From Thiotrichales bacterium (GTDB lineage Bacteria; Pseudomonadota; Gammaproteobacteria; Thiomicrospirales; Thiomicrospiraceae): a stretch of DNA of 40,816 nt. The notes under the pieces were generated by a model. It was not told where the DNA came from. It worked only from the letters and a program-made list of their open reading frames with translations, and searched no databases. Positions 19,983-32,360 of this stretch are shown in pieces (position 1 is the stretch's first letter; the number at the start of each line of letters is the position of its first letter). The stretch is from positions 1,692-42,507 of the forward strand of contig JAEMQD010000117.1 in assembly GCA_022759035.1 (NCBI GenBank), given 5' to 3'. The position numbers and the translations under genes were made by a program.

Positions 19983-21335
19983 TTAACGCATGAATGGCAT
20001 CTTGCCCGCCATCCCACGCATCATGTTTTTCATGCCGCCTTTTTTCATGCTCTTCATCATTTTTTGCATATCTTCAAACTGCTTCATCATGCGATTGAGT
20101 TCTTGTACACTCGTACCCGACCCCATAGCAATTCGGCGTTTGCGTGATCCTTTAATCAACGTCGGATTCTGGCGTTCTTTAATCGTCATAGAGTCAATCA
20201 TCGCCTCGATGCGCTTAAACTGTTTCTCTCCTTGGCTGGGATCTATTTTTTGCGATAACCCGCTCATACCTGGGAGCTTATCTAACATCGAAAAAATGCC
20301 ACCCATTTTTTGTATTTGCTGCAATTGTGCTTTGAAATCTTCAAAAGTGAACCTGTCCCCTTCTTGCAATTTTTTAGCCAGTTTTTCTGCTTCAACGCGA
20401 TCAACCTTTTGCTCTACCTGCTCGATTAAGCTTAGCACATCGCCCATACCCAAAATTCGCGACGCCATGCGCTCAGGATGGAAAGGTTCTAAGGCATCAA
20501 GCTTTTCACCAATACCTAAAAACTTGATCGGCTTTCCTGTCAACTCACGTACAGAAAGGGCTGCACCACCACGCGCATCACCATCTGTTTTGGTCAGCAC
20601 AACACCGGTTAATGGCAAAGCCTCATTAAAGGCTTTAGCTGTACGTGCTGCATCTTGACCAGTCATGGCATCAACCACAAACAAGGTTTCGATAGGTGTA
20701 ATAGCTGAGTGAATCGCTTTGGCTTCTTCCATCATCGCTTCGTCAACGTGCAAGCGACCTGCTGTATCCACAATCAGCACATCGTAAAAAGATTTCTTTG
20801 CAGCATGCATTGCTGTTTGCGCAATTGTTACTGGCGATTGATTCGCTTCCGAAGGAAAGAAGTCAACACCAACTTGTTGTGCAACTGTTTTTAACTGGCT
20901 AATTGCTGCAGGGCGATATATATCAGCGGAGACAACAAGCACTTTTTTCTTTTCACGCTCTTTTAAATAGCGTGCAAGCTTACCCACAGTCGTCGTTTTA
21001 CCTGCACCTTGCAAGCCAGCCATTAAAATGATTGCAGGAGGCGCTACATTCAGCTTTAAGCCGTCGTTAGCCTCCCCCATAACTACAGTAAGCTCTTCTT
21101 TAACAATTTTAATGAACGCCTGTCCTGGACTTAGGCTCAACGCAACCTCTTGCCCTACTGCGCGCGCTTGAACACGCTCAATAAAAGCTTTAATGACTTC
21201 TAAAGCAACGTCGGCTTCAAGTAACGCACGGCGAACCTCTCGCAGTGCGTCTTTAATATTTTCTTCGCTAAGTCTTCCTTGGCCTCGAATGGTTTTTAAG
21301 GTGCGCTGCAAGCGATCACTTAAACTTTCAAACAT
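19983..21335 (-). CDS. ffh: Ffh, signal recognition particle GTPase
   Basis: Ffh binds signal sequences and SRP RNA to target membrane proteins. The 450-residue protein has the N domain, the GTPase domain with GLQGAGKT (107-114), DTAGR (190-194) and TKTDGDARGG, and a methionine-rich M domain ending in MKNMMRGMAGKMPFMR. I place the start at 21335 (MFESLSDRLQRTLK), with GAGGAA 6 bases upstream; a longer open frame to 21404 reaches into the divergent promoter region and is not supported. Ffh next to rpsP and divergent from a ypjD homologue is the usual gammaproteobacterial arrangement. Confidence 0.96.
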   Translation of the reverse strand: MFESLSDRLQRTLKTIRGQGRLSEENIKDALREVRRALLEADVALEVIKAFIERVQARAVGQEVALSLSPGQAFIKIVKEELTVVMGEANDGLKLNVAPPAIILMAGLQGAGKTTTVGKLARYLKEREKKKVLVVSADIYRPAAISQLKTVAQQVGVDFFPSEANQSPVTIAQTAMHAAKKSFYDVLIVDTAGRLHVDEAMMEEAKAIHSAITPIETLFVVDAMTGQDAARTAKAFNEALPLTGVVLTKTDGDARGGAALSVRELTGKPIKFLGIGEKLDALEPFHPERMASRILGMGDVLSLIEQVEQKVDRVEAEKLAKKLQEGDRFTFEDFKAQLQQIQKMGGIFSMLDKLPGMSGLSQKIDPSQGEKQFKRIEAMIDSMTIKERQNPTLIKGSRKRRIAMGSGTSVQELNRMMKQFEDMQKMMKSMKKGGMKNMMRGMAGKMPFMR

Positions 21336-25731: not shown

Positions 25732-27150
25732 CTATCTGCGCTTTCTTTTTTCTGCTTTTTTAACAAAATTCATTAAGCGTTTTTTGCGCTTAATCTGGTG
25801 CTCTGTTAATTTATTTTTAATGCCCTCGTAAGGGTTTTCATTCGTTTTATATTCAATACGTACGGGTGTGCCATACAGATCGAATGCTTTACGAAAACGC
25901 TGCTCTAAGTAGCGCGTATAAGCCGCGGGCATATCATCTAATTGATTACCATGAATCACAATAATCGGCGGGTTATGACCACCAGTATGTGCATAACGCA
26001 TCTTAACACGCCGACCACGAATCAATGGCGGCTGATGCACTAGTTGTGCTTCTTGCAATTCTCGCGTTAAAGCTGGTGTTGACAGTTGTCTTGTCGCTGC
26101 AGCATAAACCTGCTTAACCATACCCAACAACAAACCAACGCCCGTACCATGAAGTGCGGAAATAAAGTGATGCTCTGCATAGGCAGCGAACTGTAAGCGC
26201 AAATCTATTTGATTTTTAACATGGTCACGCTGATCTTTTGTTAGCCCGTCCCATTTGTTAATCGCTAAAATAAGACCACGACCCGACTCTAATGCCATGC
26301 CTACCAAATGCAAATCTTGGTCAGTAATGCCTTCAGAACCGTCTAGCATTACGATCACAACATGCGAAGCTTCCATTGCCTGCAATGCTTTAATAACACT
26401 AAACTTCTCAATCATATCGTTCACGCGCGCGCGACGACGTATGCCAGCGGTATCAATTAACGTATATTGCTGTTCATCTCGTTCAAAAGGCACAAAAATA
26501 CTATCTCGCGTCGTGCCTGGCATATCATAGGCAATCACACGCTCTTCGCCCACCATTCGGTTAATTAACGTCGATTTACCCACGTTTGGACGACCGACAA
26601 CCGCGATACGAATACCAGGCGCCAAGGTCGTTACCGATGATTCGACATCTCCCTCTGCTTTACGCAAGGTATCAAAGGTCGATTCCATTAGGGCATGAAT
26701 ATTTTCACCATGTGCAGAAGAGACAGGAATAGGCTCTCCTAAACCCAAACGAAAGAATTCACTATGGGCGTAAGTTTGCGCCATGCCCTCGCTTTTATTC
26801 ACCAATAAATAGACTGGCTTATTTAATGCGCGAACCTTAGCAGCAATGACTTCATCGTGTGGCACTAAACCATCTCTAGCATCCACCAAAAAGAAGATAA
26901 CAGAAGCTTCTTCCAATGCCATTTGCACTTGTTGCTGCATAAAGACATCAACACCGTCTGTTTCACCGCTCAGTCCACCTGTATCGACAACGATATAAGG
27001 CTCATTCCCTAAGCGACCAATACCATACTGACGATCTCGCGTTAAGCCAGGAAAATCGGAAACAAGTGCATTACGTGTTCGCGTTAAACGATTAAACAGT
27101 GTCGACTTGCCGACATTAGGACGCCCTACTAAAGCGATAACGCGTTGCAT
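25732..27150 (-). CDS. der: Der (EngA), double GTPase for 50S assembly
   Basis: Der is a 472-residue ribosome assembly GTPase with two G domains in tandem and a KH-like C-terminal domain. Both P-loops read GRPNVGKST (from residue 9 and near residue 185), with DFPGLTR and DMPGTTRD switch motifs, DTGG/DTAG motifs and NKSE/NKWD specificity motifs. The C-terminus is lysine- and arginine-rich (KKAEKRKRR), as in gammaproteobacteria. It is 8 bases downstream of bamB, which is the conserved order. Confidence 0.97.
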   Translation of the reverse strand: MQRVIALVGRPNVGKSTLFNRLTRTRNALVSDFPGLTRDRQYGIGRLGNEPYIVVDTGGLSGETDGVDVFMQQQVQMALEEASVIFFLVDARDGLVPHDEVIAAKVRALNKPVYLLVNKSEGMAQTYAHSEFFRLGLGEPIPVSSAHGENIHALMESTFDTLRKAEGDVESSVTTLAPGIRIAVVGRPNVGKSTLINRMVGEERVIAYDMPGTTRDSIFVPFERDEQQYTLIDTAGIRRRARVNDMIEKFSVIKALQAMEASHVVIVMLDGSEGITDQDLHLVGMALESGRGLILAINKWDGLTKDQRDHVKNQIDLRLQFAAYAEHHFISALHGTGVGLLLGMVKQVYAAATRQLSTPALTRELQEAQLVHQPPLIRGRRVKMRYAHTGGHNPPIIVIHGNQLDDMPAAYTRYLEQRFRKAFDLYGTPVRIEYKTNENPYEGIKNKLTEHQIKRKKRLMNFVKKAEKRKRR

Positions 27151-27158
27151 AAGTTTAT

Positions 27159-28316
27159 TTACTCCACACTTCCTGCTTGCCAGAAAGTTAAATTTCCTGC
27201 AACATCTAACAAGGCCAATCGGCGATCTGTTAAGGCAAGGCCATCAGCCAAACCCGTTGAAATTGCGCCTTCAACACGTCCAATAATTGCACCGTCATTA
27301 CCATCAAGAATGTGCAATACGCCTTCCATGTCAGTCACAACAACCCATTCACCCCAAGCAATTGCTTTGCTAAGACGTCGATAGTTCAATGCATCTTGTT
27401 TCCACAGCACACGACCTGAATCGGTCGCTAAGGCTCGGACTGTGTCATCTTCAGCGACGACAAACAATCGATTGCTAGCCAACGCCATGTCTACCCATGT
27501 CGACGTATCACTTGACCATATTTGACTACCTGACTGCAACTCTAAAGCAACCACTTTGCCATTTGTTGCCGATGCAAAAACACGCGAACCATCAGTTAAA
27601 ATAGCCGCTTGCGTGTCAACCATACGTTCAATATCGGTTCTGCCGCGTGGAAAAGCGATACGTGATTCCCAAGCGCGCTCACCGTTTTCCTGCAAGATTG
27701 TTTCAACAACCCCATCTTCCCAGCCGACTAACATCGCATTAGCAACAGGCAAAGGCGCTGCCATACCACGAACAGATAGCACTGGCATATCATGGTCTAA
27801 CACCCATAAGGTCGAACCGTCAAGCGCATCTAAAGCACTCAATCGTCCATCTGCTGTACGCACAAACAAACGACCAGAGCCAGCCATAACGGCTAATACT
27901 TCGGTTTCCATTTGCACTTTCCAGCGCTGCTCACCTGTTTTAGAAGATAAGCAAAATACCTCACCATGGGCGCTGCCGAGATAAACCAATTCAGAAACTT
28001 CCGATAAGCTGGGGCCAGAAACCAATACGGTATCTAATTTCACCTGCCACACTAGATCGCCAGATGTCGAAACACAACCAACACCACCACTACCTGAGGC
28101 TGCAAAAAGCTGGTTCTCACTCTCAACAATGCGCAAACCCGGCACATCACGACGCGCCATACTGCCTAACGATTGAGACCATAAACGCGACACACGCAAT
28201 TTAGGCGTAATTGCCTGTAGCGGTGTTGGTTGATGAATCGGTTCGTTACGTCCACACCCCGCCAGCATTAACGCTGCTAAGGATACACTCGATAAAAATT
28301 GACGACGATTTATCAT
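27159..28316 (-). CDS. bamB: BamB, outer membrane assembly lipoprotein
   Basis: BamB is a beta-propeller lipoprotein of the BAM complex that inserts outer membrane proteins. The 385-residue protein has repeated PQQ-like blades (for example EVFCLSSKTGEQRWKV, RLSALDALDGSTLWVL, KVVALELQSGSQIWSS, VLHILDGNDGAIIGRV). The signal sequence is odd: INRRQFLSSVSLAALMLAGC carries both a twin-arginine motif (NRRQFLS) and a lipobox (LAGC). That suggests export by Tat, whereas E. coli BamB uses Sec. It overlaps yfgM as ATGA and precedes der. Confidence 0.94.
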   Translation of the reverse strand: MINRRQFLSSVSLAALMLAGCGRNEPIHQPTPLQAITPKLRVSRLWSQSLGSMARRDVPGLRIVESENQLFAASGSGGVGCVSTSGDLVWQVKLDTVLVSGPSLSEVSELVYLGSAHGEVFCLSSKTGEQRWKVQMETEVLAVMAGSGRLFVRTADGRLSALDALDGSTLWVLDHDMPVLSVRGMAAPLPVANAMLVGWEDGVVETILQENGERAWESRIAFPRGRTDIERMVDTQAAILTDGSRVFASATNGKVVALELQSGSQIWSSDTSTWVDMALASNRLFVVAEDDTVRALATDSGRVLWKQDALNYRRLSKAIAWGEWVVVTDMEGVLHILDGNDGAIIGRVEGAISTGLADGLALTDRRLALLDVAGNLTFWQAGSVE

Positions 28317-28954
28317 GGTGTCACTTGTCCTAAATCATCTACCCATAATTGCGATAAGCTGCGAATGCTTGCTGATAACGTCGGATTTTCTTGTGCCGCT
28401 TTAAAAGCCGCTTGCGCTGCTTCTTGCTTTCCTTGTTGCAACAAAGCCATGCCACGTAAATAATCGATCAAACCTTTAAAAGCTACTGGCGTATCAGTAG
28501 CTGCCGTATTCAATACTGACAAAGCTTCATCTGTTTTATTCGCTTCAATTAAGACACGAGCCAAGCGCAACGATGCTACAGCACGCCAATGCGCCTCTGT
28601 TGTATGATCAATAACCCACTTCAAATTTGCTTGGGCATCAGCCCAGTCCGCTTTCTCTGCTGCGTGCTTAGCCAGTAAAAACGCAGCACCTACCGCATAA
28701 GGACTTTTTGGAAAGTCCACCATTAACTGACGTGCATCAGTCGCAACGGCACCAAAATCTGTTTGCGCTGCTGAACGCAATCCTTCATAGCGCGAAGAAG
28801 CTGCTTCATTATTTGCCGTTTCATAGCTATGATAACCCTGCCAGCCTAATACGCCTGCAACGGCCAATAAACCACCAGTCAACACTGCCATACCATTTGT
28901 TTTCCACCAGCTTTTCAAGGCTTCTAATTCGTGTTGCTCATGGACGTCTTGCAT
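28313..28954 (-). CDS. YfgM-like membrane-anchored TPR protein (ancillary SecYEG translocon subunit)
   Basis: The 213-residue protein has a short cytosolic N-terminus (EQHELEALKSWWKTNG), one membrane helix (about 20-42) and a periplasmic helical-repeat region. In E. coli YfgM works with PpiD at the Sec translocon; ppiD is missing from its usual place after hupB in this window. It lies between hisS and bamB, the conserved position, and its stop codon overlaps the bamB start. Confidence 0.9.
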   Translation of the reverse strand: MQDVHEQHELEALKSWWKTNGMAVLTGGLLAVAGVLGWQGYHSYETANNEAASSRYEGLRSAAQTDFGAVATDARQLMVDFPKSPYAVGAAFLLAKHAAEKADWADAQANLKWVIDHTTEAHWRAVASLRLARVLIEANKTDEALSVLNTAATDTPVAFKGLIDYLRGMALLQQGKQEAAQAAFKAAQENPTLSASIRSLSQLWVDDLGQVTP

Positions 28955-28997: not shown

Positions 28998-30272
28998 TTA
29001 GTCGTTTGTTATTTGACAACGCAACCAAGCAGGAACTTCTGCCCAATTAAGCGTTATTTGTTCCTGATCATTACGTAAAAATTTAACACCAATCGTCTGC
29101 TGCGTTACTTCATCATCGCCTAAAATTAGGGCAATATGTGCACCGCTTTTATCTGCTTTCTTAAATTGACTTTTAAAACTACCGCCGCCGTGATGCACCA
29201 TCATCCCAACATTGGGGACTTCATCTCGCCACTTTTCCGTTAATGCTAATATTTTTTGCTGCGCTTGTTCGCCTGAAGCAATCACATAAACTTGAATAGC
29301 TGGCGTTTGCTGGGCGTGTGCTAACTGCATTAAGGCAACCACTCGTTCCATACCCATAGCAAAACCAATTGCTGGCGTTGCTTTACCACCCAATTGTGTT
29401 ACCAAGCCATCATAGCGCCCACCCGCACAAATGGTGCCTTGCGCACCCAACTCGGTTGTGACCCACTCAAATACAGTATCGTTGTAATAATCTAAACCAC
29501 GCACTAAAGTTGGCGTCACCTGATAAGGAATACCAACCGCATCAAGCTGCGCCAGCAAGCCAGAAAATTGTTGTTTACTGTGATCATCCAACCAATCGGT
29601 AAGTTGTGGTGCTTGCTGAATTAGTGCTTGTAATTCGGGATTTTTACTATCCAAAATGCGCAACGGGTTTTTATGCAAGCGCTTTTGGCTATCCTCGTCC
29701 AGCAAATCATAATGTGCCGAAAAATACTGTGTTAAAGCCTCTCTATAAGCACTCCGATCATTCGCCGAACCCAGAGAGTTAATTAACAGCTTCGCTTCTA
29801 TACCTAATTGTTTCCATAAGCGCGCTGTAATCATAATCAATTCAGCATCAATATCGGGACCAGCCATACCAAAAGTTTCAACACCAAATTGATAAAATTG
29901 GCGGTATCGCCCTTTTTGTGGACGCTCATGGCGAAACATAGGACCTAAGTAATAAACTTTTTGAGCGCCAGCAGCAAGCCAACTATTTTCGATAGCAGCG
30001 CGGACACATCCAGCCGTCCCTTCTGGACGCAAGGTTAACGAATCGCCATTGCGATCAGCAAAGGTATACATTTCTTTTTCAACAATATCGGTCACTTCAC
30101 CAATAGAGCGACAAAACAATTCCGTTTTTTCAACTACAGGCAACCGCACGTGCGTGTAGCCATAAGTAGCCAATAAATTACGTGCAACCAATTCTAAACG
30201 ATCAAACCACCAAGACTGATCACCAAAAACATCATTCATGCCACGTACAGCATGGACAAATCCATTACTCAT
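28998..30272 (-). CDS. hisS: Histidyl-tRNA synthetase
   Basis: HisRS (424 residues) charges tRNA-His. Class II motifs are seen: motif 2 region [21 protein letters not shown], the histidine-binding [14 protein letters not shown], and motif 3 [12 protein letters not shown] (shortened here to what is diagnostic). I chose the ATG at 30272; a TTG directly upstream is in frame but unlikely. It lies 7 bases after the rodZ stop codon. In relatives ispG lies between rodZ and hisS, but it is absent here. Confidence 0.96.
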
Positions 30273-30279
30273 CAACTAT

Positions 30280-30732
30280 TTATTCCAAAACACTAAACAA
30301 GCGCATCACGCTTTCAATCAACATCGCCCATAAGTCAAACTGCCAACCGATGAACAGTATCGCCGCAACAAAGCCCCATAACAACCATTTTACAGAGACA
30401 CCTTTTGCGTCACTAACCGTAAAAGGCTCTGAGATATGGCTAACCGCTTTTAGCTGTTTATTATCCTGAATACTAGCCAATACTGACTCAGGCATTTCAA
30501 TACCCAGCAACTCACTATAATTCTTTAAGTAGCCACGCACAAACATCGGCGACAAAGTCAAAGCATGCCAATTATCTTCTTCTAACGCACGAAGTGTTTT
30601 GACAGACAGTTTAAGTTGTGTTGCCACGGTTTCTTCCGATAACTGCTTTGCTAGTCTGGCTACTTTTAGCCGATTACCCCAATAGGCTTCTGCGTCTGGT
30701 TCAAGATGTAATGCTGGTGATTGATTATCCAT
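30280..30732 (-). CDS. Short RodZ-like helix-turn-helix membrane protein
   Basis: The protein has an N-terminal Xre-type helix-turn-helix (about 20-85), as in RodZ, which links MreB to the membrane: RLKVARLAKQLSEETVATQL, then PMFVRGYLKNYSELLG. A single membrane helix follows (about 114-134). It then ends after only about 16 residues, whereas RodZ of relatives has a long periplasmic domain and about 300 residues. The position, between rlmN and hisS, is that of rodZ. Its start overlaps the rlmN stop by 8 bases. I read it as a minimal RodZ; there is no sign of a frameshifted tail before hisS, which begins 7 bases on. Confidence 0.85.
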   Translation of the reverse strand: MDNQSPALHLEPDAEAYWGNRLKVARLAKQLSEETVATQLKLSVKTLRALEEDNWHALTLSPMFVRGYLKNYSELLGIEMPESVLASIQDNKQLKAVSHISEPFTVSDAKGVSVKWLLWGFVAAILFIGWQFDLWAMLIESVMRLFSVLE

Positions 30733-31894: not shown

Positions 31895-32317
31895 TTAATG
31901 ACACAACTCTGTTTGTGCAAAAAAGAAAGCAATTTCATTTTGTGCATTTTCAACACTATCAGAGCCATGAACTGCATTTTCTCGTGTGTTACTGGCAAAA
32001 CGCGCCCGGATTGTTCCTGGTGCAGCCGCTGTTGGGTCTGTAGCACCCATCAACTGACGATGATGCATTACCGCATTTTCTCCTGCTAAAACAGAAATAA
32101 CCACCGGCCCAGATAACATAAACTCAACCAATGGCGCATAAAATGGGCGATCGGCATGCACCGCATAAAAAGCCTCGGCTTCAGCTCTTGTTAACCGCTT
32201 CATTTTTGTTGCCACAACAGACAAACCTGCCTGCTCAAAAGTCGCTAAAATCTCACCAATTGCACGTTTTGCTACGGCATCTGGCTTAATAATCGATAGT
32301 GTATGCTCTAACGCCAT
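31895..32317 (-). CDS. ndk: Nucleoside diphosphate kinase
   Basis: Ndk (140 residues) balances nucleoside triphosphate pools through a phosphohistidine. The start [15 protein letters not shown] is the family N-terminus, and I place it at 32317 with GAGTGG upstream; the frame extends to a TTG at 32341 without support. The active-site histidine is in [13 protein letters not shown]. It directly precedes rlmN, as in Pseudomonas and E. coli. A terminator separates it from iscA. Confidence 0.96.
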
Positions 32318-32360
32318 ACGTAACCACTCAATATTGTTCAAAAATGTTATTCATTCTAAC

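Follow-up and report, generated by a model that had tools for sequence, protein, structure and literature searches.

The window, i.e., the whole stretch of 40,816 nucleotides that was analyzed, carries on its minus strand a bamB gene surrounded by ORFs that we name after the usual order hisS-yfgM-bamB-der. The genes and the elements of the export signal are the following:

27159..28316, minus strand: bamB, 385 amino acids, beta-propeller lipoprotein of the BAM complex (TIGR03300, PF13360 and solved BamB relatives)
28299..28310, minus strand: twin-arginine core N-R-R-Q, residues 3-6, read from the sequence; NRRQFL together with F7-L8
28257..28295, minus strand: hydrophobic region LSSVSLAALMLAG, residues 8-20, uncharged and diverged among species
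28254..28265, minus strand: lipobox L-A-G-C, read from the sequence; Cys21 is the predicted lipidated residue
28313..28316, minus strand: ATGA in which the yfgM stop and the bamB start overlap, read from the sequence
28313..28954, minus strand: presumed yfgM, upstream neighbor of bamB (ORF and gene order)
25732..27150, minus strand: presumed der (engA), downstream neighbor of bamB (ORF; name from the usual gene order)
28998..30275, minus strand: presumed hisS, upstream neighbor (ORF; name from the usual gene order)

The identity of the gene is clear. The product scored 316.2 bits with TIGR03300 (cut-off 285.2), covering positions 6-376 of the 377 in the profile, and was also matched by PF13360 in a Pfam profile scan. 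The closest solved structures were BamB chains (E 5.3e-49), and the segments PVLSVRGMAAPL and PRGRTDIERMVD align with a solved BamB. A structure prediction based on two sequences was of low quality (pLDDT 61.5) and is not used here. In family, gene order, lipobox and propeller the protein is like the gammaproteobacterial BamB/YfgL described by TIGR03300, and it differs from it by the NRRQF(L/I) of its signal. The gene lies between the presumed yfgM and der ORFs, and the same ORF order was found in a Thiomicrospira cyclica MAG (L002) whose BamB is 72% identical to that of the window; the bamB of this MAG is in turn identical to that of another genome of the window's genus (G003, locus L030), and on this basis we take the genus to be Thiomicrospira. 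A search of the whole genome with TIGR03300 found this single BamB and no second version of the Sec type. Regarding the surrounding ORFs, the one at 30280-30732 on the minus strand, between the presumed hisS and rlmN, looks by eye like a short RodZ/YfgA-like protein that stops at 150 amino acids, soon past the membrane span. The presumed hisS (28998-30275, minus strand) and ndk (31895-32341, minus strand) ORFs have TTG starts as listed, with a Met codon at most 9 residues after them.

The N-terminus of the window BamB reads MINRRQFLSSVSLAALMLAGC. The 385-residue protein (28316-27159, minus strand) opens with MINRRQFLSSVSLAALMLAGCGRNEP, and the minus strand translation of 28242-28316 is MINRRQFLSSVSLAALMLAGCGRNE, which confirms the twin-arginine motif and the lipobox that the preliminary description had seen there, its string being short of the first Met only. 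The ATG is the earliest ATG, GTG or TTG past the in-frame stop, six codons downstream of it; the position of this stop and the overlap with yfgM rule out a wrong start codon. NRRQFL provides a suitable residue at -1 and hydrophobic residues at the F and L positions, followed by uncharged residues up to the Cys, as in a TatFind-type rule. An Asp after the lipidated Cys retains lipoproteins in the inner membrane, and the residue that follows Cys21 in BamB is a Gly, which is not that signal. We also looked in the signal for a charged Sec-avoidance residue near the Cys and there was none, nor any positive charge at that place. The gap between the RR and the lipobox Cys is 15 residues in the window BamB and 14 or 15 in its relatives, which fits the 12-21 residues given for haloarchaeal Tat lipoproteins in PMC2945643.

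The preliminary description had proposed a comparison with the BamB signals of relatives. We surveyed 194 BamB loci from the genus, family, class and phylum of the window, of which 6 were dropped because no signal could be assigned to them; the remaining 188 correspond to 180 distinct proteins, four belonging to the genus and 176 to other lineages. Two BamB-like proteins, L160 (genome G137) and L055 (genome G041), had no called lipobox near the N-terminus. The motif NRRQF(L/I) was present in all four distinct Thiomicrospira proteins, and the strict core, [STNDG]RRx[FLIVM] followed by an acceptable residue, in none of the 176 others. With the TatFind-like rule plus the spacing of 12-21 residues the four genus proteins passed together with 2 of the 176 (L166 and L225), and with two further looser rules 5 or 4 of the 176 did so besides the same four. 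The zero count of the strict core outside the genus makes a chance RR less likely. The association of RR and lipobox in the genus BamBs appears to exceed chance expectation, and the twin-arginine motif of BamB is a trait of the genus Thiomicrospira.

The four proteins have three types of signal over mature parts that are 68-75% identical. Their h-regions have diverged to the point that gaps are needed to align them, and N-R-R-Q-F is unchanged despite synonymous CAA/CAG and CGT/CGC changes in its codons. In a tree of 51 selected BamBs (for which the program warned of long branches) the four genus proteins formed one clade with support 100/100, beside the 41 other family members included and on a long stem of 1.16 changes per column. 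A single gain of the signal on the Thiomicrospira stem agrees with this tree.

The change appears to be restricted to BamB. In a sample of 440,816 bases (20 stretches plus the window, 20% of the genome), RR was found in one of the 18 lipoprotein-like signals, and that one was BamB. None of the BamD or BamE proteins of the four genus genomes has an RR before the lipobox; their signals are ordinary, which rules out a Tat conversion of these other Bam lipoproteins. As far as sampled, the change of export signal is confined to BamB and does not affect lipoproteins generally.

The preliminary description had held that absence of tatABC would refute a Tat route. The genes are present: the genome of the window has, close together on contig C4, TatC at C4:21283-21912 and two TatA/B/E matches at C4:20354-20506 and 20690-20800, and TatC was found in all four genus genomes. 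The profile scores are less clear. With the Tat profile TIGR01409 (cut-off 16.7 bits) the window signal reached 14.0 and the G001-type signal 15.5 bits, and the T. cyclica type gave no match. The other Tat profile, PF10518 (cut-off 22.7), matched the three types with 11.7 (window), 13.9 (G001-type) and 13.5 bits (T. cyclica), so that neither model attains its curated cut-off on the genus BamB signals. As a reference we picked by eye four of the other eight Tat-like starts from the genome sample, where the pattern scan had found nine with BamB among them. These four, a molybdopterin oxidoreductase, an NMT1-like protein, SoxY and a flavocytochrome c sulfide dehydrogenase chain, gave TIGR01409 scores of 15.5, 23.1, 19.4 and 13.8 bits, i.e., two of the four were below the cut-off, and BamB scores about as high as the two lowest-scoring of these presumed Tat proteins. 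When TIGR01409 was run over whole genomes with E up to 1, BamB was listed in three of the four genus genomes with 13.5, 15.0 and 15.0 bits, all below the cut-off, being the last of 10 in the genome of the window and absent from the list of G003. The same lax search also gave matches in Lactococcus lactis, and for this reason the listing of BamB is weak evidence; Lactococcus is said to be without Tat in PMC10235803.

On these grounds we regard it as probable that the Thiomicrospira BamB carries a Tat-type (Tat/SPII) lipoprotein signal, with the Tat route predicted as the likeliest reading. The route suggested in the preliminary description is partly supported: it is the best interpretation of the signal, given the motif conserved in the genus, the presence of tatABC and the lax profile listing in 3/4 genomes, with scores below the cut-off.

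The low profile scores also speak for an ordinary Sec lipoprotein in which the RR is incidental, the arginines making up the positive n-region and BamB crossing SecYEG unfolded as in E. coli. On the window signal the LptM lipoprotein model beats the Tat model in two libraries (18.9 vs 14.0 and 16.1 vs 11.7 bits). Besides, RR occurs somewhere in the signal of 18 of the 176 other BamBs, and the two among the 176 with RRxF followed by a hydrophobic residue (L026 and L122), with the signals MIFRRFFILFSLLILVAC and MIRRTFLLLTLVLSAGC, look Sec-like. Hydropathy, taken as the mean Kyte-Doolittle value over the 13 residues that precede the lipobox Cys, points the same way. It was 1.73-2.22 in the genus vs a mean of 2.12 (sd 0.33) in the 176 others: 1.84 in the window (26 of the 176 lower), 1.73 in two other proteins (16 lower) and 2.22 in T. 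cyclica (112 lower). As the other BamBs span these values too, the genus h-region is not clearly less hydrophobic, and hydropathy failed as a separator here. Against an incidental RR, N-R-R-Q-F is kept in 4/4 genus proteins, in which the remaining signal has changed and the mature parts of the three signal types are 68-75% identical. Moreover, of the 18 BamB signals with RR outside the genus, 14 were scanned with Pfam: PF10518 matched none of them, and six were matched by LPAM_1, a lipoprotein model. TIGR01409 (NCBIfam) found nothing in six such signals. We consider the ordinary Sec route unlikely.

A signal serving both Sec and Tat, in which the RR would add a Tat fraction, would account for a hydropathy that is not below that of other BamB signals and for the absence of the Sec-avoidance charge. 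According to PMC5539426, Sec and Tat signals overlap in function: Tat accepts some hydrophobic Sec signals, among them those of OmpA and DsbA, and does not strictly need the RR. The conservation of the motif over the genus suggests, on the contrary, that the Tat route matters, and dual targeting seems improbable to us. The bound ligand suggested in the preliminary description, by which Tat would serve to export a propeller already loaded with a cytosolic cofactor, finds a PQQ-type propeller fold and partial PQQ-enzyme matches in its favor, but the window BamB misses the PQQ-dependent dehydrogenase cut-offs by far (TIGR03075 61.1 vs 480.05, TIGR03074 29.1 vs 832.65), the four distinct genus proteins share no Cys in their mature parts and PQQ is not required by known BamBs (PMC11302035), which leaves this explanation unsupported and very improbable.

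Under the preferred Tat reading, BamB would be synthesized in the cytosol, where its beta-propeller would fold without a cofactor. TatBC would recognize NRRQF(L/I) and the already folded protein would be translocated by Tat, after which Lgt, LspA, Lnt and Lol would process and sort it as any lipoprotein, and the sorted BamB would join BamA. We infer this course, from folding before export to recognition, lipidation and sorting, and it relies on the established knowledge of the Tat and lipoprotein pathways.

There is prior evidence of such signals in other proteins. Tat/SPII is an accepted signal class, with 36 examples in the SignalP 6.0 data set, and the twin arginine plus lipobox of these signals is shared with BamB (PMC9287161). 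BRO-2 beta-lactamase of Moraxella catarrhalis, a lipoprotein of a Gram-negative species, has RRxFL and a lipobox as BamB does, and mutants showed that its secretion requires tatA, tatB and tatC (PMC3695778); BRO-2 is an enzyme, whereas BamB is an assembly factor whose Tat route is predicted. The case most similar to ours is GOX1969 of Gluconobacter oxydans, like the Thiomicrospira protein a BamB homologue with a Tat prediction: it is 24.4% identical to E. coli BamB and can replace it in a bamB knockout of E. coli, and SignalP 6.0 gave it a TAT signal with cleavage after G37 (PMC11302035). Tat lipoproteins, BamB and a printed Tat prediction for one BamB (GOX1969) are thus already known. The sentence on GOX1969 was the only one on a Tat-exported BamB among the matches listed, as far as the texts behind them were available, and no description of a genus- or family-wide Tat-type BamB was among the matches listed, in a literature mostly without subscription papers.

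The prediction for GOX1969 led us to read BamBs from a second class within the phylum, presumably Alphaproteobacteria. We searched 86 genomes of this class, 78 of which had a match, and read 50; for one of its families (that of genome G199, whose BamB was a striking case) 60 genomes were searched, 59 had a match, 51 were read and 50 were scorable. The remaining locus of this family, L333, was left out by the lipobox filter and has TRRLFL by eye. A looser rule (RR behind a non-hydrophobic residue, 10-21 residues before the lipobox Cys) was passed by 48/50 BamBs of the family vs 5/49 in the rest of the class, and a stricter one by 42/50 vs 1/49. The signals of the family (L289, L291-L340) often read SRRAALLxPLALAGC. 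The family is probably Acetobacteraceae, the acetic acid bacteria, judging from the Gluconobacter paper. Outside both lineages, 8 of the 91 BamBs from loci with more than 60% G+C passed the looser rule, so a high G+C is insufficient by itself to explain the RR of the family. The Tat profiles matched few of these short signals (TIGR01409 2/51, PF10518 4/51), and neither of the two appeared among the matches listed for the other 49 BamBs of the class. In another family of the same class, outside both lineages, L261 has the signal MTRRLFLLAGIVLLSSC, with a consensus-like TRRxFL and a lipobox.

Since Thiomicrospira and the G199 family are both rich in RR and the others are not, Tat-type lipoprotein signals seem to have been acquired by BamB at least twice, the independence being deduced from this distribution. 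We propose tentatively, as a possibility slightly short of an even chance, that BamB has exchanged Sec for Tat in two or more independent events, one on the Thiomicrospira stem and one in the family of another class that is probably Acetobacteraceae, that the propeller is delivered folded in both, and that full outer-membrane assembly there depends on Tat and on the proton motive force.

If the Tat route is true, an outer-membrane assembly factor can switch its export route with its job unchanged, and therefore the fold of BamB would need no periplasm. Outer-membrane assembly in these bacteria would be sensitive to the loss of Tat, and BamB would be a natural Gram-negative Tat lipoprotein that still needs Lgt, LspA and Lol. 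The two lineages would also allow one to study what makes a propeller without a known cofactor fold before export.
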